This document shows positions 5,535-43,961 of a stretch of DNA of 46,871 bases, piece by piece; position 1 is the stretch's first letter, and each line of letters begins with the position of its first letter. Source of the stretch: Clostridia bacterium (GTDB lineage Bacteria; Bacillota; Clostridia; Oscillospirales; Acutalibacteraceae); assembly GCA_017410195.1 (NCBI GenBank), contig JAFQRF010000037.1, positions 1 to 46,871 of the forward strand, written 5' to 3'. The position numbers and the translations under genes were made by a program. The notes under the pieces are model-generated. The model made no database searches and had not been told where the DNA came from. It saw nothing but the letters and a program-made list of their open reading frames with translations.

Positions 5535-5563
5535 AGACCAAATCAGTTTATGATTCGTCTTAT
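5535..5563 (+). promoter_or_regulatory. ECF-sigma-like promoter element, copy A
   Basis: AGACCAAA (5535-5542), 12 bp, TCGTCTTAT (5555-5563). The same two blocks with the same spacing occur at 16721 and 43933. CGTC is a common ECF -10 core, and it stands 16 bp from GACC. A start site near 5567 would give a leader of about 28 nt with a strong RBS (AGGAGG) before the ATG at 5595. Confidence 0.65.
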
Positions 5564-5594
5564 GTATGTAAGCAAAAACAAGGAGGAATTAACA

Positions 5595-6848
5595 ATGAAA
5601 AAATCAATCAGAAAAATCCTTTGTGCAATCCTCGCAATGACCGTGGCATTCGGCAGCCTGACCGCCTTTGCTGCTGACGGTGAACCGATTTATTTTTCCG
5701 ACGGCTCGGAAGTACCCTTTGCAGGTGAACTGAAGGAGGGAAGCAACACCGTAAGCAACTCTGACGGCGACGAAAGCATTTATGTAACTTTTGATGCAGA
5801 AAAAGACGGTTATTATGTTTTTTCTTATGAAACCGAAGTTGACTGTTGGCTTTATCATGCAGAACTGGATGAAAACCGCAGGATAACTTATTCCGATGAT
5901 ATGGGAGATGAGTTTCTGCTGTATGCTTTTGACGGCGGAGAGTCGTTTACGCTGAATACCTTTATTGAACTCAAAGCCGGAGAAAATATACTTATCATTT
6001 CATGGGATAGCGAAACTGTTGCCGAAGAAACAATCGGCGTATCATATATGGGCAAAGAAATTGCCGGAGTCGATTTCTCGGCAGGTTCGGATTACACTTT
6101 GACTGCAAATGATTTGTATGAAGTGTATTATGAGCTTGTTGATGCGGAATATCAATACGGTTTATCAACCGATGATTTTGTTCTTACGTTTGATACCGGA
6201 AAAACATTTGAGACGGATTCCGCTCGTGTTTTCTTTGAAAGCGAAACAATTATTACTGACGGTGTGTATGATATCGGAGTTTACTTCGGCAAAAAAACCG
6301 TTCCTGCTCAAATTGAGGTTCGGCCGATAACCTTCTTCGTTGAAAATGCCGAAGCGGATAACCCTGAAGATTTCATCATAGCCGAATACTATGACGGAAC
6401 GCAAGACTTCGTTCCCTATGAAGGAACTTTTACCGTAACTTTGAAAAACGGTGAGAAGATAAAGGTGAATGAGGAATGGGAAGACGTTGTTATTCCGGGT
6501 ACGAACCCCGACGGATATTGGCTTTACGCTAAAGAAAATGACGAAGAAAAAACGGTTGAGATACGTCTTGCGGGATATGGCTTTGAAAAATATGAGTGCA
6601 AGACTCAGAAAGCAACAACCGAGCAGAATTTCAACCATATGAAAGAAAAAATTACATATACATTTAACAATTTCAAATATGTTATCGACTATTTCTATGA
6701 AATTATGGTGAATTCCGATTCAAAGGCAGATACTCTCAGGGCATTCGGCACATGGATTTCGCATATCAATAACAGTGTGATTCCCGTGCTTGGCAATATA
6801 ATCGGAGAATTCTTTGATTTTGTCAGTTATGAAATTCTCCATTTCTGA
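5595..6848 (+). CDS. Secreted protein of a four-member paralogous family, member 1
   Basis: No known family recognised. 417 residues from the ATG at 5595 (RBS AGGAGG at 5581; a longer upstream reading frame would run through the promoter). Residues 1-26 form a signal peptide ending in AFA-AD. Next comes a probable beta-rich domain with EGSNTV, YVTFDAEKDGYYVFSY and ELKAGEN, reminiscent of PPC-type beta sandwiches (inference only). A second region around residues 235-330 carries PITFFVENAEADNPEDF, EYYDGTQ, TVTLKNGEKIKV and IPGTNPDGY. A helical tail of about 80 residues begins at ATTEQNFNHM. It has no LPxTG motif or membrane anchor, so it is probably released or loosely wall-bound. First gene of an operon behind an ECF-like promoter. 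Confidence 0.85.
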   Translation: MKKSIRKILCAILAMTVAFGSLTAFAADGEPIYFSDGSEVPFAGELKEGSNTVSNSDGDESIYVTFDAEKDGYYVFSYETEVDCWLYHAELDENRRITYSDDMGDEFLLYAFDGGESFTLNTFIELKAGENILIISWDSETVAEETIGVSYMGKEIAGVDFSAGSDYTLTANDLYEVYYELVDAEYQYGLSTDDFVLTFDTGKTFETDSARVFFESETIITDGVYDIGVYFGKKTVPAQIEVRPITFFVENAEADNPEDFIIAEYYDGTQDFVPYEGTFTVTLKNGEKIKVNEEWEDVVIPGTNPDGYWLYAKENDEEKTVEIRLAGYGFEKYECKTQKATTEQNFNHMKEKITYTFNNFKYVIDYFYEIMVNSDSKADTLRAFGTWISHINNSVIPVLGNIIGEFFDFVSYEILHF

Positions 6849-6878
6849 TTTCATGCAATAAAAAGGGAGGTACTCAAA

Positions 6879-8132
6879 ATGAAAAAATCAATCAAAAAAA
6901 TCCTTTGCACTATTCTCGCAATGGCCATGGCATTCGGCAGCCTGACCGCCTTTGCCGCCGACGGTGAATCGATTTACGCCAACGGCATAGAAATCGGATT
7001 TGCAGGTGAGCTTAAGGAAGGCGGCAATACCGTGAATTATCCCGGCAAAATGCTTTATGTTACTTTCAACGCAGAGAAAGACGGCTACTACACTTTTGTT
7101 CATGAATCGAAGGCAGGCTTCAGATATTCGCATTGGCTTACCTGGGTTGAAACTGACGAAAACGGAGTAGTTACAGATGGAAAAAACTTCATTTTTTCGG
7201 AGCTTACAGTAGATCCGGCTACTGTTGTAACTCTTTTCAGGCTCAAGGCAGGCGAAAACAAATTTGTTGTTCAATGGCAGGAAGAGATTGCTCCTGAAGA
7301 AAAGGTGACTGTCAGTTATCTCGGCGCAGAGTTAACGGACATTGAATTTTCGGAAGGCATTGATTACGCAATGGTTTACGGCAGCGATATTTATGAGGTG
7401 TATTATTCCGGCGTCGATTACGGCGATTCGTACGGCTATGCGTTTTATGTTGATGAAATAAAGTTTTCATTTGATTCCGGTGAAAAACTGGAATTTGATA
7501 ATTTCGGAGCCGTTCCATGCATGAGTGAAACGGAAATAGAAGACGGCTTGTACGACATTGAGGTTTTCTTGGAAAAAGAGGAAACCATCCCTGCTCAAAT
7601 TGAGGTTCATCCCATAACGCACTATGTTGAGAATGTTGAAGCCGATAATCCCGAAAAATATGTCGGTGTTGAATATTATGACGGCGAAAAAGGGTATTAC
7701 GGGTATGATGGTACATATACGGTAACTTTGAAAAACGGTGATAAAATCAAGGCTTATCCGGAAGAAAATGTTATCATTCCGGGTACAAACCCCGAGGGAT
7801 ATTCTGTTTATTCTTATGTATACAGCAGAGATAGTTTTGCGGTTATCGAATTGGGAAACAAAACATTTGAAGAATATGAGTATACGAAGCAGCCTGCAAC
7901 AACCGAGCAGAATTTCAACCACATGGCTGAGAAAGTAACGGATATTATTAATAATTTTAAATGGGAATTCGACCATTTTTATTATGAAATGACAAATGCC
8001 GGTTCAAAGGCAGATACTCTCAGGGCGTTCGGAACATGGATTTCACATATAAACAACAACATACTTCCCGTGTTCGGCAACATTATCGCAGAATTCTTTG
8101 ATTTTGTCGGCTATACGGTTCTTCATCCTTGA
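6879..8132 (+). CDS. Secreted paralogous family, member 2
   Basis: 417 residues, same length as member 1 and clearly a tandem duplicate. The signal-peptide coding DNA (GSLTAFAADGE at the cleavage end) and the tail (SKADTLRAFGTWISHINN) are almost unchanged, while the middle has drifted. It keeps EGGNTV, YVTFNAEKDGYYTF, LKAGENKF, HPITHYVENVEADNPEKY, EYYDGEK, TVTLKNGDKIKA and IPGTNPEGY. RBS GGGAGG sits in the 30-bp gap after member 1, so the two are cotranscribed. Many Asp/Glu and Tyr residues, no cysteine pairs and no catalytic signature. Function unknown; export is well supported, the domain fold is not. Confidence 0.85.
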   Translation: MKKSIKKILCTILAMAMAFGSLTAFAADGESIYANGIEIGFAGELKEGGNTVNYPGKMLYVTFNAEKDGYYTFVHESKAGFRYSHWLTWVETDENGVVTDGKNFIFSELTVDPATVVTLFRLKAGENKFVVQWQEEIAPEEKVTVSYLGAELTDIEFSEGIDYAMVYGSDIYEVYYSGVDYGDSYGYAFYVDEIKFSFDSGEKLEFDNFGAVPCMSETEIEDGLYDIEVFLEKEETIPAQIEVHPITHYVENVEADNPEKYVGVEYYDGEKGYYGYDGTYTVTLKNGDKIKAYPEENVIIPGTNPEGYSVYSYVYSRDSFAVIELGNKTFEEYEYTKQPATTEQNFNHMAEKVTDIINNFKWEFDHFYYEMTNAGSKADTLRAFGTWISHINNNILPVFGNIIAEFFDFVGYTVLHP

Positions 8133-8172
8133 TTGTTCAGGCTTGTTAATCATTAATAAGGAGGATATTAAA

Positions 8173-9456
8173 ATGAAAAAGATTATGAAAAAATTAACGG
8201 CTGTTATGCTTGCCGCAATGATTTGTCTTGCAGCAGTCCCTGCATTTGCGGCGGACAGTGAGGAAACTGTTTACTGGTATTACGATGATAATGACAGTTG
8301 GGCAACTTCTTATACTTGTATCGGAGAAGTTGCCGAAGGCGAAAATACCATTGAATACGGTTTTGAAAATCATATCGAAGATGATTATTACATTCCGGAA
8401 CAGTATGTTTATCTTACTTTTGAAGCTGAAAAGAGCGGCTACTATCTCTTTAAAACCGATTTTGCAAGCTACAATATAGATGTTCCCGAAAAGTACGGAG
8501 AGGACAATAAGGTTTACGGCTATGCGGACTGTGAGAACGCATACGATGACGATTATGATTATATGTATTATTATCTGCCTGCAGGTGAAAACATAATCGG
8601 TCTGGAATGGTGGACATATTATTCTGAGCAGTATAGCTTTGATATTGAATATCTTGGAGACGCCGTAAATGATATTATTTATGACGAATCGGCACTTGAA
8701 GATTTGATGGAAGGAACCGATATATATGTTTACAGTGATGAAAAGTCTGCAAGTCTTTACAATCTTGATTACGAAGTTGTATTCTCCGAAAAGACCGTAA
8801 AGTTTGAAGAAGAATCCTTATATTGCGATATCGACCCCGAAACGGGTGAATACAGCCTCACTTTCCTTGATTATTCCGAAAAGGCGGATATCACAACTAT
8901 AAAGCCCGAGGATATTGTTAAAAACGTTGAGGTTGTTAATCCCGATGAATGCCTTGCGGGTATTGAATACTACGACGGCTCGGTTGATGCGGTCGGTATG
9001 CTTTCGTTGGAAGAGATTAAGGTAACATTTGCCGACGGAACTGTTGAAATTTATGAGGTTGATGAGGACGGACAGGCAGTAATAGAGCTTCAGAACGGAA
9101 GAACATATTACGCCGGTGTATATTATGATGATTGGTATTATTGGAATTATGAGACTGATAGCTACGAATGGGCTATGGTAACGTATTTTGAAAGCAAAGA
9201 ATACAGCGCAAGCAAGCTTAATACAACCGAAGCGGATTTCAACAGCAACATGGACAGAATGATGGATAATAACAAGCAGTGGTTTGACAGTGCAACCTGC
9301 GATGCCGAAAACAGAATTAACATGGCGTTAAGTTCAGATACATCTTTCACCAAAAAATTAGAGCTTCTTTCGGCTATTCCTTTCCTTTACACCAATGCTC
9401 TTTATCAGGCATTCTGCAATTTCGTTGAGCTTGCGGAATATTATGAAGTTTTATAA
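8173..9456 (+). CDS. Secreted paralogous family, member 3
   Basis: 427 residues from the ATG at 8173 (RBS GGAGG, 40-bp gap from member 2). Signal peptide ends in PAFAAD. It is more diverged and very rich in Tyr, Asp and Glu (for example DNAYDDDYDYMYYYLPAGEN), which suggests an acidic, perhaps cation- or envelope-binding surface (inference). The family signature is kept: EGENTIEYGF, YLTFEAEKSGYYLF, IVKNVEVVNPDECLAGIEYY, KVTFADGTVEIYEV, then a helical tail after TTEADFNSNM. The opening VYWYYDD resembles the VRWYYSE of member 4, so members 3 and 4 form one subgroup and members 1 and 2 the other. Confidence 0.85.
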   Translation: MKKIMKKLTAVMLAAMICLAAVPAFAADSEETVYWYYDDNDSWATSYTCIGEVAEGENTIEYGFENHIEDDYYIPEQYVYLTFEAEKSGYYLFKTDFASYNIDVPEKYGEDNKVYGYADCENAYDDDYDYMYYYLPAGENIIGLEWWTYYSEQYSFDIEYLGDAVNDIIYDESALEDLMEGTDIYVYSDEKSASLYNLDYEVVFSEKTVKFEEESLYCDIDPETGEYSLTFLDYSEKADITTIKPEDIVKNVEVVNPDECLAGIEYYDGSVDAVGMLSLEEIKVTFADGTVEIYEVDEDGQAVIELQNGRTYYAGVYYDDWYYWNYETDSYEWAMVTYFESKEYSASKLNTTEADFNSNMDRMMDNNKQWFDSATCDAENRINMALSSDTSFTKKLELLSAIPFLYTNALYQAFCNFVELAEYYEVL

Positions 9457-9477
9457 ATCAGAAAGAAGGGCGAATAT

Positions 9478-9867
9478 ATGAAAAAGACAAGACTCGGCAT
9501 CAGCACTTCGTTGCTGGCAGCTCTGGCTTATTTTACGGCGGCATTCGGCGGATATCCCGCAACTCTGCTTGTCTGCGGATATATCCTGCTCTTTGAAAAA
9601 GACGGGAAGCTCAGAAAATCTGCAGTAAAAGCGCTCGTATTAATGGTCTTGTTTACGGCGGTTTTGTCGTTCACAAGTATTTTCGGAACATCAACCGTAG
9701 GCATTTCGTCAATGGTATCGCCGATAAATGCCGGTTCCGCAACTGTTTATACGCTTGTTGTACTTATTCTGAGCGTACTTCCGAAGCTTGTTCTCAGCGT
9801 TCTCGGCATTCTTGCACTCTTGGAAAAGGATAAAAACGTGCAGGCTTCGAACGAGAATGAACAATAA
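9478..9867 (+). CDS. Small integral membrane protein, last gene of the secreted operon
   Basis: 129 residues, 21 bp after member 3, with RBS AGAAGGG. Three or four hydrophobic segments can be seen (about residues 8-38, 47-65 and 85-113) with short charged loops (FEKDGKLRKS) and a hydrophilic tail (KDKNVQASNENEQ). No family recognised. Its place at the end of the operon suggests a membrane partner of the secreted paralogs or a membrane response to the same stress signal; this is inference from context only. No convincing terminator hairpin follows it. Confidence 0.75.
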   Translation: MKKTRLGISTSLLAALAYFTAAFGGYPATLLVCGYILLFEKDGKLRKSAVKALVLMVLFTAVLSFTSIFGTSTVGISSMVSPINAGSATVYTLVVLILSVLPKLVLSVLGILALLEKDKNVQASNENEQ

Positions 9868-9958
9868 CATAATAATTTATTTGAGGCTGTTTTGCTCCTG
9901 CCGTTTTTCAGATAGTATAATTGTTAAAAACCTTTGCGGATATTAAAAAGACTTTTGC

Positions 9959-9987
9959 TTGAAATGCAAATACAGTTTGTGTATTAT
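9959..9987 (+). promoter_or_regulatory. Promoter of the XRE regulator
   Basis: TTGAAA, 17 bp, TATTAT; start site about 15 bp before the GTG start. Confidence 0.6.
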
Positions 9988-10010
9988 TTGAGTGAAAGGA
10001 GATGACTGCT

Positions 10011-10424
10011 GTGAAACTGGCAGATAATATTTATAGTTTTAGAAAAGCAAACGGTCTTTCGCAGGAAAAATTAGCAGAAAAAATAAACGTTTCAAGACAA
10101 ACAATTTCAAATTGGGAGCTTGGAGAAACCGCACCTAACCCCGAGCAGTTAATATTGCTTTCATCTGTTTTTGAGAAAAGTATTGATGAACTGGTGGGTA
10201 AAGAAATAAAGTCTGAAACAAAAGAAGTTACAAAGGATAATATCAATAAAATAAAATTAATCTATGTCGGACTTGCTGTTTTAGGTGCTTTGACTTTAGG
10301 TGTATGGTCTGCAACGGCTAACAGATTTCAGATGTGGGAAACATTCGGAATAACTGTTGCTGGAGCTTTTATCGGTGCAGCTTTGGCGGCGGTAATTCAT
10401 GGATTTATTAAAACTAAAAAATAA
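10011..10424 (+). CDS. XRE-family regulator with membrane segments
   Basis: 137 residues. The N-terminal cro/CI-type helix-turn-helix (LADNIYSFRKANGLSQEKLA, then NVSRQTISNWELGETAPNPE) is followed by a charged linker (KEIKSETKEVTKD) and two hydrophobic helices (about residues 80-98 and 106-130). This DNA-binding-plus-membrane build is common in Firmicutes and suggests sensing or tethering at the membrane. An ATG at 10002 overlaps the RBS (AAAGGAGA at 9995-10002), so the GTG at 10011 is the likely start. It lies downstream of the secreted operon but has its own promoter. Confidence 0.88.
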   Translation: MKLADNIYSFRKANGLSQEKLAEKINVSRQTISNWELGETAPNPEQLILLSSVFEKSIDELVGKEIKSETKEVTKDNINKIKLIYVGLAVLGALTLGVWSATANRFQMWETFGITVAGAFIGAALAAVIHGFIKTKK

Positions 10425-10436
10425 TGTGAAATAAGT

Positions 10437-10462
10437 TGAGCCGACGAAAAACCGTCGGCTCA
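10437..10462. terminator. Hairpin between convergent genes
   Basis: A perfect 10-bp stem TGAGCCGACG/CGTCGGCTCA with an AAAAAC loop. The T-tract is weak on both sides, so it probably serves both converging genes. Confidence 0.65.
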
Positions 10463-10464
10463 CA

Positions 10465-10947
10465 TCATTTTATTGCAAAGTTTTTTAGTTCATCACCCGT
10501 CATTCTGTAGATTGTCCAGTCATCAAGCGGCTTTGCACCGACGGAAAGATAGAAGTCGATACTCGGTTTGTTCCAGTCAAGGCAGCACCATTCAAGTCTG
10601 CCGCATCCTCTTTCAACTGTTGTTTTTGCAAGAAATTTCAAAAGAGCCTTGCCGTATCCTTTGCCTCTGTGTTCGGGAAGCACAAACAAATCCTCAAGAT
10701 AAATTCCCGACCTGCCGAGAAAAGTTGAAAAATTATGGAAGAAAAGAGCAAATCCGACCTCTTTTCCGTTTTCAACGGCAAAAACCACCTCTGCTTTTTT
10801 CTTTTCGAATATCCATTGTCTGAGTATTTCGGGTGTTGCAACAACCTCGTTGCTCATTTTTTCGTATTCCGCAAGCCTTTTGATAAAATCAAGAATGATT
10901 TCCGTATCCTTTTCTTCAGCAAAGCGTATTTCAAAAATCTTTTCCAT
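10465..10947 (-). CDS. GNAT acetyltransferase of the diamine/thialysine type
   Basis: 160 residues from the ATG at 10947, which has AAGAGG upstream; an earlier in-frame ATG at 11007 falls on the promoter and is rejected. The acetyl-CoA site is LEDLFVLPEHRGKGYGKALL, and the C-terminal part (LEWCCLDWNKPSIDFYLSVG) is close to spermidine/spermine and thialysine N-acetyltransferases (SSAT-like). It would transfer acetyl from acetyl-CoA to a small amine; the true substrate is not known. Monocistronic. Confidence 0.88.
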   Translation of the reverse strand: MEKIFEIRFAEEKDTEIILDFIKRLAEYEKMSNEVVATPEILRQWIFEKKKAEVVFAVENGKEVGFALFFHNFSTFLGRSGIYLEDLFVLPEHRGKGYGKALLKFLAKTTVERGCGRLEWCCLDWNKPSIDFYLSVGAKPLDDWTIYRMTGDELKNFAIK

Positions 10948-10978
10948 TGAATATTCCTCTTTCTGCTGTATTGCATCT

Positions 10979-11007
10979 ATTATATCATCAATTATTATTG
11001 CAGGCAA
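10979..11007 (-). promoter_or_regulatory. Promoter of the GNAT gene
   Basis: TTGCCT (11007-11002), 17 bp, TATAAT (10984-10979) on the minus strand, back to back with the pyr promoter. Confidence 0.65.
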
Positions 11008-11034
11008 TATATATCGGGTTTTTGTTTTTTACGG

Positions 11035-11062
11035 TTGACTTTTTCTGTTAATATGGTATACT
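11035..11062 (+). promoter_or_regulatory. Promoter of the pyr operon
   Basis: TTGACT, 16 bp, TATACT. The start site should fall near 11069, leaving a leader of only about 24 nt before pyrC. That is too short for a PyrR-type attenuator. Confidence 0.65.
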
Positions 11063-11092
11063 GTATAGAGTAACTAATGAAAGGGTCAGACG

Positions 11093-12337
11093 ATGGATTT
11101 TACCGTTAAAAACTGTAAAATAAACGGACAGGGCAATCCTGTTGATATAAGTGTTTCAGGCGGCGTCATCGGCGGTGCCTCCGATACCGTTTTTGAATTT
11201 AATAACTGTGCTGTTTTTCCCGGCTTTATTGATGTTCATGTTCATCTCAGAGAGCCGGGATTTTCTTATAAAGAAACGATAAAAAGCGGTACTTCTGCGT
11301 GTGCAAAAGGCGGTTACACAACCGTCTGCTCAATGCCCAACCTCAACCCTGTACCCGACAGCAAAGAACATCTCGGTGAGCAGCTTGAGCTGATAAAGAA
11401 TGATGCCGTTATGAATGTTGTGCCCTACGGCTCAATTACTGTCGGTCAGAATGGCGAAGCACTTTCCGATATGGATGAAATGGCTGAATTTGTCTGTGCA
11501 TTTTCCGATGACGGTAAGGGTGTGCAGAGCGATGAAATGATGAGAGCTGCAATGCTCAAGGCAAAATCGCTCGGCAAGATGATTGTTGCTCACTGCGAGG
11601 ATAACAGTCTGCTCAAAGGCGGATATATCCACGACGGCAAATACGCAAAAGAGCACGGTCACAGAGGAATCTGCTCCGAAAGCGAGTGGAAACCCATTGA
11701 GCGTGATTTAAAGCTTGCGGAAGAAACGGGATGTGCTTATCACGTCTGCCACATTTCAACCAAAGAGAGCGTCGAGCTTATCAGAAAAGCAAAAGCTCAG
11801 GGGGTTGACGTAACGTGTGAAACAGCACCGCATTACCTCATCCTCAGCGACAAGGATATGCAGGAACACGGCAGATTTAAGATGAATCCTCCCTTACGTG
11901 ACGAGAGTGACAGGCTTGCGCTGATTGAAGGTGTCTGCGACGGCACGATTGATATGATAGCGACCGACCACGCGCCCCATTCAGCAGAAGAAAAGGGCAG
12001 GGGACTCGAAAAGAGCGCAATGGGTATTGTCGGAATCGAAACCGCATTCCCTCTGATTTACACTTACCTCGTCAAAACAAACATCATCACTCTCGATAAA
12101 TTAGTTGAGCTTATGAGCACAAATCCGGCAAAAAGATTCGGCTTTGATTGCGGAATTTGTGATGGTAAACCCGCAAATTTTACGGTGTTTGACCTGAACA
12201 AAGAATACGAAATTAATCCCGAAGAATTTATTTCGATGGGCAGAGCAACTCCGTTTGAAGGATATAAAGTATTCGGCGAATGCCTTATGACAGTTTGTAA
12301 CGGAAAGATTGCATACAAAAAAGGAGAAGAAAAATGA
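11093..12337 (+). CDS. pyrC: Dihydroorotase
   Basis: 414 residues. Cyclises carbamoyl aspartate to dihydroorotate, step three of UMP synthesis. The amidohydrolase metal site is visible: DVHVH (H49, H51), FSDDG (D139/D140, where class I enzymes use Asp instead of a carboxylated Lys), HCED (H167), CHIST (H220) and the catalytic Asp of TDHAPH (D292). Length and motifs fit class I, the type found with separate pyr genes in Firmicutes. First gene of the operon, RBS AAAGGG; its stop overlaps the next start by 4 bp. Confidence 0.96.
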   Translation: MDFTVKNCKINGQGNPVDISVSGGVIGGASDTVFEFNNCAVFPGFIDVHVHLREPGFSYKETIKSGTSACAKGGYTTVCSMPNLNPVPDSKEHLGEQLELIKNDAVMNVVPYGSITVGQNGEALSDMDEMAEFVCAFSDDGKGVQSDEMMRAAMLKAKSLGKMIVAHCEDNSLLKGGYIHDGKYAKEHGHRGICSESEWKPIERDLKLAEETGCAYHVCHISTKESVELIRKAKAQGVDVTCETAPHYLILSDKDMQEHGRFKMNPPLRDESDRLALIEGVCDGTIDMIATDHAPHSAEEKGRGLEKSAMGIVGIETAFPLIYTYLVKTNIITLDKLVELMSTNPAKRFGFDCGICDGKPANFTVFDLNKEYEINPEEFISMGRATPFEGYKVFGECLMTVCNGKIAYKKGEEK

Positions 12338-13065
12338 ACAGAGGAATTTATAAAATCGTCTCCAATAAGCCTTTGACCAAGGATATATATGAAATGAAGC
12401 TTGATGGTGAAACCTCGCATATAACAGCCCCCGGTCAGTTTCTCAATATTCTGCTTGACGGCTTTTATCTTCGCAGACCCATTTCAATCTGCGACTATGA
12501 TGAGAAAACAGTAACAATCATCTATAAAGTTGTCGGTCACGGCACAGATGCTATGGCAAAGCTTCCCGAAGGAGCGGAGCTTGATATTCTCTGCGGTCTC
12601 GGCAACGGCTTTGATACCGCTATATGCGGCAAAAAGACCGTACTTATCGGCGGCGGTGTCGGTGTACCTCCGATGTATAATCTTTGCAAAAAGCTTATCG
12701 CAGAGGGCAAGGAAGTTGCCGTTATTCTCGGCTTTAACACAAAAGACGAGATTTTCTATGAAGAAGAATTCAAAGCGCTCGGTGCAAAGGTTTATGTTTC
12801 GACCGTTGACGGTTCATACGGAACAAAAGGCTTTGTAACCGATGTGCTTAAAGACCTTGAATACGATTACTTCTGCACATGCGGACCTATGCCCATGTTC
12901 AGAGCAATTGAAAAAATCGCTGCGACAAGCGGTCAGTACAGCTTTGAAGAGCGTATGGGATGCGGCTTCGGCGCTTGCATGGGATGCTCGTGCAAAACCA
13001 AATACGGCTATAAGAGAATCTGCAGGGACGGACCCGTGCTTGAGAGGGAGGAGATAATATGGTAA
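12334..13065 (+). CDS. pyrK: Dihydroorotate dehydrogenase B, electron-transfer subunit
   Basis: 243 residues with an N-terminal ferredoxin-reductase FAD domain (FYLRRPISICDY), a nucleotide-binding region (LIGGGVGVPPMYNLCKKL) and a C-terminal [2Fe-2S] site with C210, C215, C218 and C230 (CGFGACMGC...C). It passes electrons from PyrD flavin to NAD+. Its presence next to pyrD marks the NAD-linked class 1B enzyme typical of anaerobic and facultative Firmicutes. It overlaps pyrC by 4 bp (ATGA) and pyrD by 7 bp. Confidence 0.95.
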   Translation: MNRGIYKIVSNKPLTKDIYEMKLDGETSHITAPGQFLNILLDGFYLRRPISICDYDEKTVTIIYKVVGHGTDAMAKLPEGAELDILCGLGNGFDTAICGKKTVLIGGGVGVPPMYNLCKKLIAEGKEVAVILGFNTKDEIFYEEEFKALGAKVYVSTVDGSYGTKGFVTDVLKDLEYDYFCTCGPMPMFRAIEKIAATSGQYSFEERMGCGFGACMGCSCKTKYGYKRICRDGPVLEREEIIW

Positions 13066-16252: not shown

Positions 16253-16675
16253 ATGCATATTGATTCAATCAAAAACGGCGTTGTTATTGATCACATCAAA
16301 TCAGGCAAGAGCATGGAGATTTATCATCATCTTGAGCTTGATAAGCTTGACTGCACCGTCGCAATAATCAAGAATGTCCACAGCAAGAAGATGGGATATA
16401 AGGATATTATCAAAATCGACTCTGAAATGGAGGTTGACCTTGATGTCCTCGGTTATATCGATCCCGATATAACCGTTAATATAATCAAGAATGAGGTTCT
16501 TTGCGAAAAGAAGAAGCTTACTCTACCCAATCAGATTAAGGATGTTATCAAGTGCAAAAATCCCCGCTGCATAACAACAACGGAGCAGGATTTGCCCCAT
16601 ATCTTCAAGCTTACCGATGCGGCAACAAAAACTTATCGCTGCATCTATTGCGAAACAAAGGCAAAAACAGAATAA
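16253..16675 (+). CDS. pyrI: Aspartate carbamoyltransferase, regulatory subunit
   Basis: 140 residues. An N-terminal nucleotide effector domain is followed by a zinc domain with C101, C106, C130 and C133 (CKNPRC and CIYC), which bridges to PyrB. It gives allosteric control by nucleotides, so flux may be controlled at the enzyme here, since no RNA attenuator is seen at the operon head. RBS GGAGGTGG lies at the end of pyrB. Last gene, followed at once by a strong terminator. Confidence 0.95.
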   Translation: MHIDSIKNGVVIDHIKSGKSMEIYHHLELDKLDCTVAIIKNVHSKKMGYKDIIKIDSEMEVDLDVLGYIDPDITVNIIKNEVLCEKKKLTLPNQIKDVIKCKNPRCITTTEQDLPHIFKLTDAATKTYRCIYCETKAKTE

Positions 16676-16681
16676 ATTTTT

Positions 16682-16720
16682 ATCCCGTACAGATTTTATA
16701 ATTTTGTACGGGATTTTTTT
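16682..16720 (+). terminator. Terminator of the pyr operon
   Basis: A perfect 10-bp stem ATCCCGTACA/TGTACGGGAT followed by a run of T up to 16720. The next base begins the ECF-like element of the following gene. Confidence 0.9.
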
Positions 16721-16749
16721 AGACCAAAGCACCTTTATAATCGTCTTAT
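16721..16749 (+). promoter_or_regulatory. ECF-sigma-like promoter element, copy B
   Basis: AGACCAAA (16721-16728), 12 bp, TCGTCTTAT (16741-16749), identical in both blocks and spacing to copies A and C. The ATG of the secreted gene follows 45 bp later behind AGGAGGTG. No TATAAT-type promoter is visible in the gap, so this element is likely the promoter. Confidence 0.65.
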
Positions 16750-16793
16750 GTTATGAAAGGATATATATCTTTAATTTTCAGGAGGTGTCAGGT

Positions 16794-18098
16794 ATGATGA
16801 AGAAAATGAAATCTGTTACTGCATTTGTGCTTGCTTGTGTTATGATGTTCTGTGCTTTCCCTGCTTTTGCGGCAGAAGCCGATGAAACCGTAAGGTGGTA
16901 TTATTCCGAAAACTACATCGAGTATACCTATGCAGGAGAACTCAAAGAAGGCCAAAACAGTGTTGAAGCCTACGACAACGATATAATCTATTGTAATTTC
17001 AAGGCGGAAAAAGCAGGCTATTATTTATTCTTTAACGAGAACACATATGTTGATGAAGATGTTTTTACCGGAATTGAAAACGGAAGGGTAAAAGATGTAA
17101 GACAAGACGGAGAATGGATAGGTTTTTTTGGTGATTACGGAGGAAGCGGAAGCTTTTATTATCTTGAACCCGGAGAGGTATTTATTGGATTTTATTTAGT
17201 CGGAGGTACGGGTTTTCCTGTTTCTCTTGATTTCGGAGAGATAACCGTCACATATTGCGGCGAAGTAACGGACATGATCTTTGCGGAAAACTCGTTTGAT
17301 GTTATACCGAACACAAGTGATGTGTGGGGTTGGGATCCTTATAACGATGTTTATAATGCTGATGAAGATATTTACACTTATGCTGTTGATGTTAAAGATG
17401 TTCATGTGGGATTTTCGTCAGGGAAAACGATTGAAATGGGGGAGCGTGCATACAAAATTATTACAGACGAAAGCCTGGATGTTGCCGGAAATCATAATGC
17501 AAAAATATGCTTCCTTGGCTATGAAGAAGATATTGTTATAAATGCACACCCGGTAAGTGATTACATAAAAAGCGTAGACGTAAAAAATGCTGAAAAAAGT
17601 GCGGTTGTTAAGGAATATTATAACGGAGATATTGCTTGGGATTACCGTTCTTTGGGATATGAAACCGCTGTTGTAACTTTTGCAGACGGCACCGAAGAAG
17701 AACTTATTCTTAATGAATTCGGTAACGGTAAAATAACTCTTTGTAACGGAAGAACATATACAGTCTATACAACAATTGAAAACGTTAATGAAGACAATCG
17801 CAAATCGGTTTATCTTCTTGTTTGTCTGAGCAATAATACGGATTTGGTTCTTAACTCCTACGAATGCAAGACCGTTAAAGCAAATAACGATGAAAACTAT
17901 GAGCATCTTATTGAAGTTACAATCGGAGATTATGTTGGCGCGCTTGTTTACTATCTGGAGCTTGCATCCGATGCCGATTCGGCAACGGAATTTGTAAACA
18001 GCCTCAGTGCTTTTTGGGCTGTTTTCAAAGAGTGTGTCAAAAACAGAAGCGACTCAATTATTGAAGAAGTTTTCAAATACGCTTGCTCGCTGATATAA
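16794..18098 (+). CDS. Secreted paralogous family, member 4
   Basis: 434 residues from the ATG at 16794, RBS AGGAGGTG. Signal peptide with a long hydrophobic core ends in PAFAAEAD. Family marks are ETVRWYYSENY, YAGELKEGQNSVEAYDND, YCNFKAEKAGYYLFF, HPVSDYIKSVDVKNAEKS, VVTFADGTEEELIL, and a helical tail after NDENYEHLIE. It stands apart from members 1-3, about 7 kb away beyond the pyr operon, yet has the same ECF-like promoter, which ties the family together by regulation as well as sequence. No anchor motif. Function unknown. Confidence 0.85.
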   Translation: MMKKMKSVTAFVLACVMMFCAFPAFAAEADETVRWYYSENYIEYTYAGELKEGQNSVEAYDNDIIYCNFKAEKAGYYLFFNENTYVDEDVFTGIENGRVKDVRQDGEWIGFFGDYGGSGSFYYLEPGEVFIGFYLVGGTGFPVSLDFGEITVTYCGEVTDMIFAENSFDVIPNTSDVWGWDPYNDVYNADEDIYTYAVDVKDVHVGFSSGKTIEMGERAYKIITDESLDVAGNHNAKICFLGYEEDIVINAHPVSDYIKSVDVKNAEKSAVVKEYYNGDIAWDYRSLGYETAVVTFADGTEEELILNEFGNGKITLCNGRTYTVYTTIENVNEDNRKSVYLLVCLSNNTDLVLNSYECKTVKANNDENYEHLIEVTIGDYVGALVYYLELASDADSATEFVNSLSAFWAVFKECVKNRSDSIIEEVFKYACSLI

Positions 18099-35878: not shown

Positions 35879-35904
35879 TTTATATCAATCCTTTCATAAT
35901 TTAC

Positions 35905-36160: not shown

Positions 36161-36165
36161 CGATT

Positions 36166-36194
36166 ATTCTATCACAAGAAAAATATTTTTGCAA
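36166..36194 (-). promoter_or_regulatory. Promoter of the T-box-pheST operon
   Basis: TTGCAA (36194-36189), 17 bp, TAGAAT (36171-36166) on the minus strand, starting directly after the upstream gene's stop. Confidence 0.6.
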
Positions 36195-36197
36195 GTG

Positions 36198-38533
<2,336 letters not shown>

Positions 38534-38550
38534 TTAAATTTAATGATAAC

Positions 38551-38579
38551 ATTATATCAATTAAAATACGTAAAATCAA
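38551..38579 (-). promoter_or_regulatory. Promoter of ligA and the GcvH-like gene
   Basis: TTGATT (38579-38574), 17 bp, consensus TATAAT (38556-38551) on the minus strand. Confidence 0.72.
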
Positions 38580-38584
38580 TATTT

Positions 38585-39214
38585 TTATTCGACCATAACA
38601 TCAGGCACCGACCCGACTATAACCGTCTGCGCAACGCAGAATGAGGTTTCAACGGTTTTCGGAATACGCCTGCCTGCAAGGCTGAGCATAACAGTTGTTT
38701 CAACGTTGAGCATAACGCTGTGCTGAGTCTGATTTATGCCTGCACTTTCAAAAATATTCTCAAAATCCGTTTTTGTTGAAGATGAAAATCCGACATCAAT
38801 TCCGATATGCGGACCAAGTCCCGAAAAAAGGATTATTCCGCTTGCCGTGCCGAGAGAAACCGGAATTTCAGTTTTGCTCATCGCATCAAATTCGCTGTCA
38901 ATGGCATTTGTGACCTGCGATTTGAAAAGATTCATCTTCATTATGTCAGTTGTGATTCCCGTTATTGCGTTGCTGCTGCTGTAATTTATGCTCACAAGCT
39001 CCGAATATGCAGGTGCATTCCGTGAAAGAATTTTTTCAACCGCAGTATTAACTCTCTCCGATGAAATTGCATAAGCCTCAAGAGTTGCAAGGTCATAAAC
39101 GGCAGGACGGATTTTTGCATCAATCAGTAAAACAGATATCAAAAAAACGATAACCGTACATATAATTATAAATATTGCGGGATTTCTCCGACGGTAAAAG
39201 TGTCTGTATCTCAC
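38585..39214 (-). CDS. yunB: Sporulation protein YunB
   Basis: 209 residues from a GTG at 39214 with AAAAGGGGTGG upstream. One N-terminal membrane helix (AIFIIICTVIVFLISVLLI) is preceded by a basic stretch (RYRHFYRRR), then an outside domain with LGTASGIILFSGLGPHIGID near the middle. This matches YunB, made in the mother cell during sporulation in B. subtilis (sigma-E control) and needed for full spore formation. Monocistronic. Supports a spore-forming host or recent spore-forming ancestry. Confidence 0.9.
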   Translation of the reverse strand: MRYRHFYRRRNPAIFIIICTVIVFLISVLLIDAKIRPAVYDLATLEAYAISSERVNTAVEKILSRNAPAYSELVSINYSSSNAITGITTDIMKMNLFKSQVTNAIDSEFDAMSKTEIPVSLGTASGIILFSGLGPHIGIDVGFSSSTKTDFENIFESAGINQTQHSVMLNVETTVMLSLAGRRIPKTVETSFCVAQTVIVGSVPDVMVE

Positions 39215-39230
39215 ATAAACCACCCCTTTT

Positions 39231-39238
39231 ATTATATG
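39231..39238 (-). promoter_or_regulatory. Possible sigma-E type -10 of yunB
   Basis: CATATAAT on the minus strand is one base from the sigma-E -10 form CATACAAT. No clear -35 was found, so this is tentative. Confidence 0.3.
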
Positions 39239-39269
39239 CAGGTAAAACAAGTTTGTTCTTCTGTGTAAT

Positions 39270-39306
39270 TAAAAACGGAGACAACCCCGGTTATGAAGTG
39301 TCTCCG
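39270..39306 (-). terminator. Inverted repeat with minus-strand T-run before yunB
   Basis: Stem CGGAGACA/TGTCTCCG with TTTTTAATT following on the minus strand. It lies beyond the stop of the GH2 gene (39367) and ends the sugar operon before yunB. Confidence 0.75.
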
Positions 39307-39366
39307 AAAACATATAATCCGTGCAGGGCGGGATGCCCGTATCCGGCTGTGGAATTTTAATAATTA

Positions 39367-41076
39367 TCAATCTTCAATTGCCGCCTTGCGGGAGTTGATT
39401 TTTCTGAATATTTCGGTATCGAACTTGGGTGTTCTGTCGTAATAGTAAAGACCGTTCTGCTCCTGTTCGATGTCGTAAAGCTGTGTATAACAGAAGCCGA
39501 ACATTCTGTAGTTGTCGAGAAGCGCATTGGTAAGACCCGCATATCTCTCAACAAATTCTTCCTCTGATTTGGGTGCGTTACCGTAGCCCCAGGCGTCGCC
39601 TCTGTCGCCTTTTGACCATTGAAGTCCGCCGTATTCGCTTACCCATGCACAGCCCTTGCCCGAGTACATCTGTCTGTCGGGGAATCTTTCATAAAAAATT
39701 CCCTCGGTCATAAGTTTATCATAATTTTCTTTGAAAACATTATAGTCCTGCTCATAATCGTGGACGTCATAGATATCGGTTATTGTGTGGAAATTACCGC
39801 TTGTGTCAATGCAGGGGCGGGTTTCATCCATATACTTTGTGACTTTGTATATCGTTGAGATAACCTCGTCATACTGCTTTCTGCCGTTGATATCCCATGT
39901 TTCGTTGAACGGACACCAACCGATGATTGAAGGATGGTTGAAGTCTCTTTCAACACATTCACACCATTCGGGAAGCATTGCGGCAAGTGCATCCTTCTGT
40001 GACCAATCAAGACCCCAGTTGCCGTATTCACCCCATACAATGTAGCCGAGTCTGTCGCAATGATAAAGGAATCGGGGTTCAAAAACTTTCTGATGAAGTC
40101 TTGCTCCGTTGAAGCCGACCGCCATTGAAATTCTGACATCGTTTTCAAGGTCTTCTTCTGCCGGTGCGGTGTAAATACCGTAGGGATAGAAGCCCTGGTC
40201 AAGAACAAGTCTTTGGAAAACTGATTTGCCGTTGATGAGGAATTTATAATCGTCAAGCTTTACGTTGCGCAGTCCGAAATATGATTTGATTTCGTCGTCG
40301 CCGAAAGTGAGAGTGAGGTCATAGAGTCTGCCGCAACCGACTTCCCAGAGATGAATTTCAGAAAGGTCGATTTCACCCGAAACAGTTGACGATGCGGTTT
40401 TTTCAAAGCTGCCCATGGGCTTACCGTTAAAGGATGCCTCCGCAACAAATTCACCCTCGCCCTCAACAACTGCAGTAACTGCAAGTGTGCCGTTTATGTA
40501 GTCGGGGAAAAGCTTGAAGCTCTTGATGTATGCCTTGGGTACGAATTCAAGCCACACGGTCTGCCAGATGCCCGTTGTTCTTGTATAGTCACAGCCTCGG
40601 GATTTCAGCTCTTCGCACTGCTTTCCTCTGGGTACAAGAGGATTTCTGACATCGTCAACCGCATTGACGATAACCGTGTTCTCACCTTCGTTGAGGAATT
40701 CGGTGATATCAATTTTAAATGAAGCATAGCCGCCGGTATGCGTGCCTGCAAGCTTGCCGTTGATATAAACCTTTGCTTCATAGTCAACAGCACCGAAATG
40801 AAGAAGGACTCTGCCTTCAAGCTGAGCGGCGGTTATATCAAAACTTCTTCTGTACCATACTGCAGGAATGAAATCTGTATATTCGATGCCCGAAAGCTTG
40901 CTTTCGGGGCAGAAGGGAACAATGATTTTCTTTTCCCATTCGGCTTTCTCAAGGATACCTGCGGCATATTTACTGTTGCCGAAGTCAAATTCAAAATCCC
41001 ATTCTCCGTTAAGATTGAGCCAGTTTGCACGCTCCGATTGCGGATTGGGATGCTCGGGTCTGGGTATGTTAATCAT
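39367..41076 (-). CDS. Glycoside hydrolase family 2 protein
   Basis: 569 residues: a sugar-binding jelly-roll (LNGEWDFEFDFG, WYRRSFDI, LHFGAVDYEAKVYINGKLAG), an Ig-like domain, and a TIM barrel with the acid/base Glu in PFNETWD and the likely nucleophile Glu in VSEYGG. GNWGLDWSQ and VERDFNHPSIIGW are typical of the beta-galactosidase/beta-glucuronidase family. It is short for GH2 and has no signal peptide, so it is intracellular. Exact sugar unknown. Third gene after a ROK kinase and a SIS isomerase, so it likely frees the sugar those enzymes use. Confidence 0.9.
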   Translation of the reverse strand: MINIPRPEHPNPQSERANWLNLNGEWDFEFDFGNSKYAAGILEKAEWEKKIIVPFCPESKLSGIEYTDFIPAVWYRRSFDITAAQLEGRVLLHFGAVDYEAKVYINGKLAGTHTGGYASFKIDITEFLNEGENTVIVNAVDDVRNPLVPRGKQCEELKSRGCDYTRTTGIWQTVWLEFVPKAYIKSFKLFPDYINGTLAVTAVVEGEGEFVAEASFNGKPMGSFEKTASSTVSGEIDLSEIHLWEVGCGRLYDLTLTFGDDEIKSYFGLRNVKLDDYKFLINGKSVFQRLVLDQGFYPYGIYTAPAEEDLENDVRISMAVGFNGARLHQKVFEPRFLYHCDRLGYIVWGEYGNWGLDWSQKDALAAMLPEWCECVERDFNHPSIIGWCPFNETWDINGRKQYDEVISTIYKVTKYMDETRPCIDTSGNFHTITDIYDVHDYEQDYNVFKENYDKLMTEGIFYERFPDRQMYSGKGCAWVSEYGGLQWSKGDRGDAWGYGNAPKSEEEFVERYAGLTNALLDNYRMFGFCYTQLYDIEQEQNGLYYYDRTPKFDTEIFRKINSRKAAIED

Positions 41077-41088
41077 AATGGTTTCTCC

Positions 41089-41709
41089 TTATTTATCAAA
41101 AAAATTATCTTCAATCATCGCTGCAAGGCAATGATATACGGGCAACGTAAGTTCCTGAACCTTGAAGGTTTCGGTTTCGGGAAGCTTTATGCATATGTCG
41201 GAAAATCTCGAAAGTGCGCTTTCTTTTTCTCCGGTTATTGAAATAACTTTCATATCTGCCGCAAGCGCTGTTTCAGCGGCATAGACGATATTTTCGGAAT
41301 TACCCGAAGTACTGAAACACAAAAGAACATCTCCGCTTTTTGCGTATGCATAAACCTGCTGTGCAAAAACGAGCGAAGGTACGGCATCATTTGAAAACGC
41401 GGTCATAAGCGCCGAATGAGCGCATAGCGATATTACGGGCAGACCTTTTTGCAGATTATCCGCAATGAATTTATCGCCGAATTTTTCTTTTTCACTGTCG
41501 GAAAGAGGCCTTTTTTTAAGGAAGCCTTTAAGCAGTTCGCCTGCAAAATGGTCGCAGTCGGCAGCTGAACCGCCGTTGCCGCAACAGAGAAGCTTTCCGC
41601 CGTTTTCAAAGCACGTTGCCATTATTTCGAATGATTTGAATATATCTTCTCTGCAGATTTCAAGAGAAGGATATCTTTCAAAAAGCTCATCAAAGATTTT
41701 GTCTGTCAT
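41089..41709 (-). CDS. SIS-domain sugar-phosphate isomerase, GmhA-like
   Basis: 206 residues. LLCCGNGGSAADCDHFAGEL and LLCFSTSGNSENIVYAAETA are the two phosphosugar-binding loops, and the build is that of sedoheptulose-7-phosphate isomerase (GmhA) relatives. True GmhA makes heptose for LPS, not expected in a Gram-positive. Its place between a ROK kinase (4-bp overlap) and a GH2 enzyme suggests a catabolic sugar-phosphate isomerase or a sugar-phosphate sensor. Activity not certain. Confidence 0.85.
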   Translation of the reverse strand: MTDKIFDELFERYPSLEICREDIFKSFEIMATCFENGGKLLCCGNGGSAADCDHFAGELLKGFLKKRPLSDSEKEKFGDKFIADNLQKGLPVISLCAHSALMTAFSNDAVPSLVFAQQVYAYAKSGDVLLCFSTSGNSENIVYAAETALAADMKVISITGEKESALSRFSDICIKLPETETFKVQELTLPVYHCLAAMIEDNFFDK

Positions 41710-42662
41710 CTTTTTGCCTCCGCAAAATCCTTTGCAACGCCGATTGCGGCAAAATCTCCGATTTCGTCACCGAGCATTGCAGGAACTATTTTACAGCAAT
41801 CCGCAGAAATTGCAAGAGCTTCTTTTTTTATCGTTTCATTCATTGCATCTGCAAGAAGATAGCCCGAGCGCTGAAAAATGCTTCCAATAACGATTCTTTC
41901 GGGGTTAAGAATATCAATAAGAATTGAAATTCCGAGACCGAGCTTTTCGCCGCATCTGCGGTAGATTGCGTTTGCGAGCTTATCGCCTCCGACCGCTGCC
42001 TCGGCAATTGTTTTGGCGGTAACATTGTCACGGGGTATTGTTGTCACTCCATTATAAATCGAGAGCATTTTTTTGCCCATAACAGCAATGCCTGCACCGC
42101 TGCAGAAACCTTCAAATGAGCCTGCTTTTCCGTATGCTGCCGGACCGTCGGCATCAAGTCTTATGTGACCGACTTCGCCTGCGGTGCCGCTGGTGCCCGA
42201 GTAGAGCTTTCCGTCAAGGATAAGACCTGCTCCCATTCCCGTGCCGAAGGTGAGGAATATCATATTCTTTGTGCCTTTTCCTGCTCCGAACTGCCATTCT
42301 GCAAGTGCGCACGCATCCGCATCGTTCCTGACCTTGCACGGAATGCCGAGAGCCTCTGTTATCATATCCGCAAGCGGGACGTTATCCCAGTCCGAAAGAT
42401 TGGGAGGTGACATAATTATTCCCTTGTCGCTGTCAAGCGGACCGCCGCAGCTTACTCCGCACGCAAGTACGTCGGAAGATTCGATTCCGTTTCTGTCAAG
42501 AATTTCTCGTACAGATGAAATAAGCTGAGCGATTATTTCTTTGTATCCTCTTTCGGCTTTGGTGTCAAATCTGATTTTGTCCTTAATATTCACAGCATTT
42601 TTTTCGCTGAGGATAACGGCACATTTCGTTCCGCCTATATCCATTCCGAGGTAATATTTCAT
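41706..42662 (-). CDS. ROK-family sugar kinase without the zinc cysteines
   Basis: 318 residues from the ATG at 42662. ATP site YYLGMDIGGTKCAVI; catalytic Asp region RNDADACAL (residues 112-120); GTGMGAGLILDGKL; and GEVGHIRLDADGP with H166. In most ROK kinases a CxCGxxGC zinc motif follows; here it reads AAYGKAGS (175-182), so all three cysteines are missing. Likely phosphorylates a hexose or amino sugar released by the GH2 enzyme. First gene of the operon; overlaps the SIS gene by 4 bp. Confidence 0.9.
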   Translation of the reverse strand: MKYYLGMDIGGTKCAVILSEKNAVNIKDKIRFDTKAERGYKEIIAQLISSVREILDRNGIESSDVLACGVSCGGPLDSDKGIIMSPPNLSDWDNVPLADMITEALGIPCKVRNDADACALAEWQFGAGKGTKNMIFLTFGTGMGAGLILDGKLYSGTSGTAGEVGHIRLDADGPAAYGKAGSFEGFCSGAGIAVMGKKMLSIYNGVTTIPRDNVTAKTIAEAAVGGDKLANAIYRRCGEKLGLGISILIDILNPERIVIGSIFQRSGYLLADAMNETIKKEALAISADCCKIVPAMLGDEIGDFAAIGVAKDFAEAKR

Positions 42663-42692
42663 GGAAATCACCGCCTGCATCTGTTTGTGTTC

Positions 42693-42721
42693 ATAATACA
42701 ACAAAACTAATATTTAGTCAA
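42693..42721 (-). promoter_or_regulatory. Promoter of the ROK-SIS-GH2 operon
   Basis: TTGACT (42721-42716), 17 bp, TATTAT (42698-42693) on the minus strand. Confidence 0.65.
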
Positions 42722-42756
42722 TAATTACCCATAATAACCCGGAAAGGATGATTTAT

Positions 42757-43434
42757 TTGGCGGTAACTCTGATAAGGGCGACAATTCTTTATTTAACTAT
42801 AATATTTCTTATGCGGCTTATGGGTAAAAGGCAGATAGGCGAGCTTCAGCCGTCAGAGCTTGTGATAACCATTCTTATTTCGGAAATCGCATCAATACCC
42901 ATGCAGGATAACAGCGTACCGATTCTTCATTCAATTGTTGCTCTGTTTACGCTTGTTGCCTATGAAATTTTTTCTTCCGCACTCAGCCTTAAAAGCGACC
43001 GTCTGCGTGCGCTGATTCAAGGGCATCCCATAATTGTTATCCGAGACGGCAAAATTGATATGAAAGCGATGCGCAAGCTGAGAATGTCGGTCAATGATCT
43101 GATTTCGCTTCTGCGACAGAAGGATGTTTTCGATATATCACAGGTATCCTATGCCGTTTTTGAAACGAACGGAAAAATCAGCGTTCTCTTAAAGCCCGAG
43201 AACAGAAATTCAACCGCAAAGGACCTCGGAATTATCCCTGCTGACTGCGGAATGCCGTTTGCCGTTGTGTGCGACGGGAAAATTATTGAGGAAACCGTTG
43301 CGGATTCGGAGTTGGATATAACTAAAGTAAACAAGCTTATTCTTTCAAGTAAAATTCCGCTTGAGAATATACTGATTATGACTGTCAACAAAAACGGTGT
43401 TTCGTTTGTTGAAAGAAAGGATAATGAGGATTGA
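42757..43434 (+). CDS. DUF421 membrane protein (YetF type)
   Basis: 225 residues. Two or three N-terminal membrane helices (RATILYLTIIFLMRLMGKRQ, then PSELVITILISEIASIPM and HSIVALFTLVAYEIF), then a cytoplasmic DUF421 domain (RALIQGHPIIVIRDGKIDMK, KLRMSVNDLISLLRQKDVF). Related proteins are linked to sporulation and stress in Bacillus. An ATG at 42748 touches the RBS (GGAAAGG at 42741-42747), so the TTG at 42757 is the better start. Cotranscribed with the DUF4363 gene by a 4-bp overlap. Confidence 0.87.
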   Translation: MAVTLIRATILYLTIIFLMRLMGKRQIGELQPSELVITILISEIASIPMQDNSVPILHSIVALFTLVAYEIFSSALSLKSDRLRALIQGHPIIVIRDGKIDMKAMRKLRMSVNDLISLLRQKDVFDISQVSYAVFETNGKISVLLKPENRNSTAKDLGIIPADCGMPFAVVCDGKIIEETVADSELDITKVNKLILSSKIPLENILIMTVNKNGVSFVERKDNED

Positions 43435-43817
43435 AAAGGGTAGTTGCAGCCGTTTTTCTGTTGAGCTGTGCCGTTCTGATTTCAGTATGGACGGGATATG
43501 TTTTTAACTCGGAGATGAACGGTCTTTTGACCTCTTTGCAGGAGCTTACCGAATGTGCCGAGTCGGATTCGGATGAAATTCTCGGCAATAAAACCGAGGA
43601 ACTTCTTGAAAAGTGGCATAAATCATCAAAAATTCTTCATGCGCTTGTTATGCATGAGGGTATGGATGAGCTTGAAGAGAATATCACCGCATTACCGCTT
43701 GTTTTGAAATATTCCGACCGTAATGAATTCAAAAGCAAATGCATTGAAGCCATCAACCGGATTGAAAATCTGTTAAATTCGGAAAAACTGAATTTTGAAA
43801 ATGTTCTGAAAATTTGA
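43431..43817 (+). CDS. DUF4363 family protein
   Basis: 128 residues starting at a TTG that overlaps the DUF421 stop. One N-terminal membrane helix (VVAAVFLLSCAVLISVWTGY), then a helical, acidic outside domain (LTECAESDSDEILGNKTEEL, KSSKILHALVMHEGMDELEE). DUF4363 genes commonly follow DUF421 genes in Clostridia. Function unknown; extracytoplasmic, membrane-anchored. No clear terminator hairpin follows. Confidence 0.85.
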   Translation: MKRVVAAVFLLSCAVLISVWTGYVFNSEMNGLLTSLQELTECAESDSDEILGNKTEELLEKWHKSSKILHALVMHEGMDELEENITALPLVLKYSDRNEFKSKCIEAINRIENLLNSEKLNFENVLKI

Positions 43818-43932
43818 AGAAACACCGTTTTTGCAGTTTCTGCAAAATTGATGTTGAAAATTCATCAGAAAGTGTTATTTACTTACACTGAACTATGAGT
43901 TAGTATATTTTTAAGGAAAAAACAAAAAGTTC

Positions 43933-43961
43933 AGACCAAATCGTGTTTTCGCTCGTCTTAT
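43933..43961 (+). promoter_or_regulatory. ECF-sigma-like promoter element, copy C
   Basis: AGACCAAA (43933-43940), 12 bp, TCGTCTTAT (43953-43961), the same as copies A and B, 137 bp before nfeD. A tiny frame with its own RBS (ATG at 43982, MYEL, stop) lies in the leader. NfeD-flotillin genes are under the ECF factor sigma-W in B. subtilis, which supports the reading. Confidence 0.65.

Follow-up and report, generated by a model that had tools for sequence, protein, structure and literature searches.

The 46,871-nucleotide contig JAFQRF010000037.1 of the Clostridia bacterium assembly GCA_017410195.1 (Acutalibacteraceae), referred to below as the window, carries three exact copies of a bipartite motif in front of genes for secreted paralogs and for NfeD and an SPFH protein. 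We consider these sites likely to be promoters of self-activating, membrane-tethered extracytoplasmic function (ECF) sigma factors, which are probably freed by proteolysis. Observed in the sequence are the motif, its spacing and placement, further sites before sigma genes, the homology between the C-terminal parts of these sigmas and the secreted paralogs, and the co-occurrence of motif and sigma genes among related genomes. The window sites would be read by RNA polymerase carrying the tethered ECF sigmas P0001, P0002 and possibly P0003. The three copies and the genes behind them are as follows (aa, amino acids):

5535..5563, + strand: predicted ECF-type promoter, copy 1 (-35 AGACCAAA, -10 TCGTCTTAT), exact match
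5595..6848, + strand: secreted paralog 1 (P0006), opening the operon; N-terminus like a signal peptide, no Pfam match above cut-off
6879..8132, + strand: secreted paralog 2 (alignment A2)
8173..9456, + strand: secreted paralog 3 (alignment A2)
9478..9867, + strand: hydrophobic 129-aa protein without a Pfam family, probably closing the operon
16721..16749, + strand: predicted ECF-type promoter, copy 2, exact match
16794..18098, + strand: secreted paralog 4 (P0007), matching the C-terminal part of P0002 at E 1e-11 (alignment A2)
43933..43961, + strand: predicted ECF-type promoter, copy 3, exact match
44099..44539, + strand: NfeD (Pfam PF01957, 4.7e-17)
44571..45494, + strand: SPFH/Band 7 protein (Pfam PF01145, 9.3e-42)

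The pattern AGACCAAA-N12-TCGTCTTAT matches the window exactly at 5535, 16721 and 43933, always on the + strand and with 16 base pairs (bp) from GACC to CGTC; no further match was found at up to three mismatches. A preliminary description of this DNA had reported three identical copies with fixed spacing and ECF promoter layout, each pointing into a transcription unit, and it was accurate on all these points: copy 1 precedes the gene at 5595-6848 and two further paralogs, copy 2 the gene at 16794-18098, and copy 3 the nfeD-SPFH pair at 44099-45494. The 129-aa protein is placed in the first operon because the gap before it is 21 bp. Among 300 genomes drawn from the family (5 from the genus), exact copies occurred in G000 only; the 295 from outside the genus held none, and nine of them had a single one-mismatch match, which does not exceed the control with the motif read backward. 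Short motifs do recur, but a chance origin or a repeat family is already refuted by the counts and retains practically no probability: shuffled windows yield 0.17 matches on average at up to three mismatches, three were reached in 0 of 100 shuffles, the 295 sampled genomes outside the genus contain no exact match, the placement is intergenic, and the copies differ from one another in flanks and spacers.

The preliminary description had also suggested searching the whole genome and looking for a copy before an ECF sigma/anti-sigma pair. The assembly (2.36 Mb, 88 contigs, 93.55% complete, the window being contig C30) was searched with 16 fixed bases, AGACCAAA-N12-TCGTCTTA, giving 6 exact sites; another 3 sites differ at one base, 3 at two and 20 at three. 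At zero to two mismatches, 11 of the 12 sites are intergenic and point on the same strand to a gene whose start lies at most 300 bp downstream, compared with 0 of 18 three-mismatch sites. At up to three mismatches the backward-read control outnumbers the motif in this genome (43 vs 32), so three-mismatch matches are noise as a class; at up to one mismatch the motif prevails, with 9 vs 0 in this genome and 48 vs 5 over 45 genomes of the genus. When the two halves were searched in the latter set with any spacing from 5 to 25, all 20 exact pairs had a spacing of 12. A looser core, AGACCA-N14-WCGTNNNA, gave nine sites genome-wide (control 1), every one among the motif sites already found. Such fixed spacing, single orientation and position before genes fit a promoter. 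The sequence-level features of an ECF-type promoter are present, namely cores about 16 bp apart, location on one strand upstream of genes, and a site before the sigma's own gene.

An alignment of 38 distinct sites (up to one mismatch) shows C or T before the -35 element in all 38, A/T tracts upstream of it and, in most sites, a third conserved block absent from the preliminary description, TaggTGaAAgGg (also written RTGAAAGGG), just after the -10 element; its five best positions are T (34 sites), G (34), A (34), A (32) and G (28). The block is partial at copy 1; at the other copies it reads:

16753..16760, + strand: third conserved block ATGAAAGG at copy 2, one base beyond the consensus position
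43964..43972, + strand: third conserved block GTGAAAGGG at copy 3

Judged by its position, it would lie at or just past the predicted transcription start, and it might act as initial transcribed sequence, extend the recognition site or belong to the mRNA leader. By eye, a short G-rich/C-rich hairpin apparently stands right behind RTGAAAGGG in the leaders L110:3726, L109:4064 and L102.

The reach of this block past a plain -35/-10 pair, together with the short inverted repeat formed by AGAC and GTCT, might suggest that a DNA-binding activator or repressor uses the motif as its operator, with another element as the promoter. At nfeD a candidate for such a promoter exists:

44023..44051, + strand: possible second nfeD promoter, sigma-70-like TTGAAA-17-TAGAAT with TG before the -10 element

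This site is a consensus match only, with three such matches in the region vs 0.9 expected; nfeD may have two promoters, since it lies about 60 bp downstream of copy 3. We nevertheless rate an operator as very improbable. The halves make a poor palindrome (AGACCAAA vs TCGTCTTA), the strand points to the gene in 11 of the 12 sites, the spacing is that of ECF promoters, no sigma-70-like site was found around copy 2 (16600-16850), and sites precede ECF sigma genes.

In line with the preliminary description, no sigma gene was found in the window: none of the 20 genes of the genome with sigma region 2 lies on C30. Two of the two-mismatch sites precede the genes for P0001 (760 aa, C51) and P0002 (764 aa, C57), and one three-mismatch site precedes that for P0003 (600 aa, C43), with an 88-aa open reading frame (ORF) between. 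The anticipated sigma genes are therefore found behind the motif, but as fusions with a membrane-like segment and not as a pair with an anti-sigma. All three proteins match Sigma70_r2 and Sigma70_r4_2 over the Pfam cut-offs and TIGR02937 over its own, with no sigma3 match listed; sigma2 and sigma4 without sigma3 place them among the ECF (group IV) sigmas. The nearest fold is SigW, with P0002 below the SigW equivalog cut-offs (121.5 vs 209 bits and 110.1 vs 243.1). The Pfam scan of P0001 and P0002 returned no domain over cut-off besides sigma2 and sigma4, and matches of P0001-P0003 at E 0.1 include no zinc-finger and no anti-sigma family. Inspection by eye of the genes next to P0001 and P0002, which were not profile-scanned, revealed no anti-sigma.

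Past residue 190 a conserved juxtamembrane stretch leads into an Ala/Gly-rich linker and a single hydrophobic segment (about 265-288), and in P0001 and P0002 some 470 residues follow. From about residue 335 onward, the window's secreted paralogs can be aligned with this C-terminal part throughout (alignment A2), with pairwise E values of 4e-23, 1e-11 and 3e-13; the P0001-P0006 match is weak (2e-4), while P0006 is homologous to P0007 (2e-20) and aligns with the sigma ectodomains in A2. Because the homologous paralogs have signal-peptide-like N-termini, the C-terminal part of the sigmas most likely lies outside, and an N-in/C-out topology is highly probable. The layout is that of a sigma fused to a transmembrane segment and a predicted extracytoplasmic domain. 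In a tree of secreted proteins and ectodomains, all ten ectodomains form one group (SH-aLRT 98). P0003 has a Thr-rich tail in place of the paralog-like part and is followed by the gene for a 1626-aa surface protein of BspA-type leucine-rich repeats (LRR).

Full-length sigmas of the P0001/P0002 type number ten in 8 of the 45 genus genomes (two of them, in G010 and G013, near-identical). The best upstream motif match has 2, 2, 2, 1, 1, 1, 3, 2, 2 and 4 mismatches, so that nine of the ten genes are preceded by the motif at one to three mismatches; its first base lies 59-107 nucleotides before the start codon. Sites with up to one mismatch occur in 9 of the 45 genomes, comprising 7 of the 8 with such a sigma vs 2 of the 37 others (p 6e-6). 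Self-activation is expected because the motif also precedes the sigma genes, and from these sequence patterns we regard it as quite likely that a tethered sigma recognises the sites.

Sister sigmas without a paralog-like ectodomain stand behind the same motif or behind a sister promoter, TGAACCGA...TCGTCTAAT-GGGTGAAAGG. Allowing up to one mismatch, 30 sites of the sister pattern occur, spread over 11 of the 45 genomes and absent from the genome of the window. Of its 20 exact matches, 19 are no more than about 5 kb away from a P0002 relative, in nine genomes, and most of the 20 share the downstream block. A conserved protein of 77-98 aa (VNLDGxHSLxISV...YAEKFDxPCNYLK) is encoded behind the promoter and just before sister tethered sigmas (L108:3474, L110:9056, L112, L114:3237 and L115:6126), and it is a possible partner or inhibitor. 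Identical coordinates of sigma matches and motif sites in G009:C43 and G012:C69, from two of the nine genomes with exact sister matches near a P0002 relative, apparently reflect a shared or misbinned contig.

Several observations weigh against the reading of the sites as promoters of tethered sigmas. The backward control of the sister pattern reaches 39 sites at up to one mismatch, so its count of 30 says nothing alone and only the 20 exact matches and their positions count. The transmembrane-like segment is moderately hydrophobic (Kyte-Doolittle about 1.8), the Ala-rich linker could conceal a second membrane pass, and no anti-sigma domain was recognised. One exact site (C69:17298, - strand; L037:8299-8326) faces no recognisable gene. 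The motif before the sigma gene of G019 is weak (4 mismatches, shuffle p 0.05), and G026 (63% complete) has a sigma preceded by a three-mismatch match and no site at up to one mismatch. Target turnover is evident: a site is found upstream in 2 of the 8 motif-bearing genomes that keep nfeD and in 2 of the 4 genomes (of 45) that have the gene for the peptidase M50 protein, and secreted-family units divide into 10 with a site and 12 without. NfeD-SPFH, which the preliminary description had placed in the regulon, is on this sequence record not a general but a predicted lineage-specific member; loss of the motif where the gene is kept, which that description had named as evidence against its proposal, is seen for nfeD and not for the sigma genes. 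Envelope stress, the role proposed there, is still an inference from the gene list.

Further points on this side are G023 and G031 (74% and 81% complete), in which the motif occurs and no full-length sigma of the P0001/P0002 type was found; since both have related tethered sigmas, the reader may be a sister sigma or several. They also speak for the alternative that another ECF sigma, either a canonical one with a separate anti-sigma or a 191-aa paralog on C7, reads the promoters, the tethered sigmas being mere targets. The genome does offer 20 sigma-region-2 genes, and the C7 protein shares 56% identity with the P0002 sigma domain (a relative at 51% occurs in G013). This short ECF sigma (L104:4011-4586; L106:4889-5464) has no membrane segment, ectodomain or motif and might compete for the same promoters. 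We consider this alternative improbable, as no other sigma gene is preceded by the motif at up to two mismatches, the motif tracks the full-length tethered sigma across the genus, and exact sister-promoter copies lie at sister tethered-sigma loci in other genomes.

In the proposed mechanism for the tethered sigmas, the ectodomain would sense the cell surface or a surface-bound ligand, and the signal would lead to cleavage. A candidate for this step is an M50-type site-2 protease, and one gene of this type is itself behind the motif. The freed sigma domain would then drive its own gene and the secreted siblings, with NfeD-SPFH, a GPH transporter, a large surface protein and others as lineage-dependent extra targets; the secreted siblings could in turn compete with or bind the tethered copy. 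By analogy, release by proteolysis is slightly favoured. ToxR/CadC-kind regulators work membrane-bound, and a tethered sigma could likewise act at the membrane uncut. This is the less likely course, even though no protease gene was seen beside P0001 or P0002 and the M50 gene has the narrow distribution given above: general site-2 proteases could serve, and IutY, a fused ECF sigma of the same layout, is released by Prc and RseP (PMC5411451; PMC8999054).

Among 200 family genomes, 17 from outside the genus (15 genera) have a gene for a relative that matches the sigma and membrane region, with open frames of 413-1303 aa; none of them matches past residue 379 at E 1e-30. Seven of the eight relatives read have a hydrophobic segment at the threshold used. 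Ten relatives (7 from other genera, 3 from the genus) were scanned for domains behind this segment: BspA-type LRR were found in seven (one below cut-off), CAP in two and neither in one. The sigma-plus-membrane chassis thus seems to carry exchangeable surface-protein ectodomains. Tentatively, with the odds somewhat against it, these proteins may form a modular transmembrane ECF sigma class of gut Clostridia whose sensing ectodomain was captured from the secreted family under control, PPC/Ig-like here and BspA-type LRR or CAP in relatives. The cell would thereby read its own exports, and export or surface state would feed back on transcription without a separate anti-sigma. The named P0002 relatives are metagenome-assembled genomes of Clostridia, Ruminococcaceae or Clostridiaceae bacteria, with the gut of goat or roe deer as the source of several.

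SigW of Bacillus subtilis is a separate protein held by the anti-sigma RsiW, whereas here the sigma, membrane segment and C-terminal part are in one protein and the -35 core is GACC. IutY of Pseudomonas putida (ECF243) is an ECF sigma likewise fused to an extracytoplasmic part and freed by Prc and RseP (PMC5411451; PMC8999054). Unlike in the proteins described here, its periplasmic part is an anti-sigma domain of outer-membrane-receptor-driven iron cell-surface signalling, and no statement that it resembles secreted targets was found. The actinobacterial ECF48/ECF52/ECF53 sigmas (SCO4117) also join a sigma, a transmembrane region and an extracytoplasmic domain (PMC8999054; PMC5826349), and SCO4117 controls its own gene (PMC5826349). 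They carry a zinc-finger domain, none of which matched in P0001-P0003; ECF52, which is described as found exclusively in Actinobacteria, has a carbohydrate-binding domain. In Clostridium thermocellum, parallel SigI/RsgI sensors with exocellular carbohydrate-binding modules control cellulosome components (PMC10575876). The several sensors in parallel are a shared trait; there, however, the sensor is the anti-sigma RsgI, a separate protein, and SigI is not an ECF sigma. The enzymes under this control likewise contain carbohydrate-binding modules of the RsgI kind.

Fused membrane ECF sigmas are already known (IutY, ECF52), and the sigma ectodomain that is sibling to its secreted targets is the new element. 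Searches of literature that lacked most subscription papers listed no clostridial fused sigma with an ectodomain from the family of its secreted targets, an absence that is not proof. If true, the proposal means that in gut Clostridia a single protein serves as sensor, membrane transducer and sigma factor, opens a sigma-promoter pair to direct test and supplies a regulator for uncharacterised secreted families. With relatives present in 17 genomes from 15 other genera, there may be many sensors of this kind whose signal is yet to be found; if general, ectodomain-target matching would help to predict what an orphan sensor controls.

In this genome the motif also stands before two small ORFs on C51 (64 and 85 aa) and before genes for a GPH/MFS_2 transporter (P0008), a surface protein of 1984 aa on C20 (BspA-like by eye), the membrane protein P0005 on C48 with a peptidase M50 match just over cut-off, and the secreted paralog P0004 on C57. 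Targets shared with motif-bearing relatives include the transporter (83% identical, G013), NfeD (81%, G013), the M50 protein (49%, G010), the 85-aa ORF (G017) and secreted paralogs (G010, G013, G018, G023 and G031). Motif and secreted paralogs have a common position after pyrimidine genes (named by eye) in the window and G010.

The C69:17298 site has no ORF downstream of it, being directed at the 3' end of a glycosidase-like gene in convergent orientation, and perhaps serves a small RNA or is an orphaned promoter. A one-mismatch C69 site (L037:8342-10264) precedes several ORF fragments resembling one broken gene. Upstream of copy 2 lies a further feature:

16682..16720, + strand: terminator-like hairpin (16682-16714) plus T run, fold -17 kcal/mol, z -7.0

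Copy 2 begins immediately after this T run; the hairpin was missed by a simple terminator scan, which accepts loops of 3-8 only. Near the contig end (45601-46029), a fragment resembles by eye an RHS/YD-repeat protein. Upstream of distant motif-less secreted-family genes (L203, L205, L201, L202, L194 and L196), TTACA recurs by eye every 10-11 bp or so, in a pattern like the sites of some other regulator.
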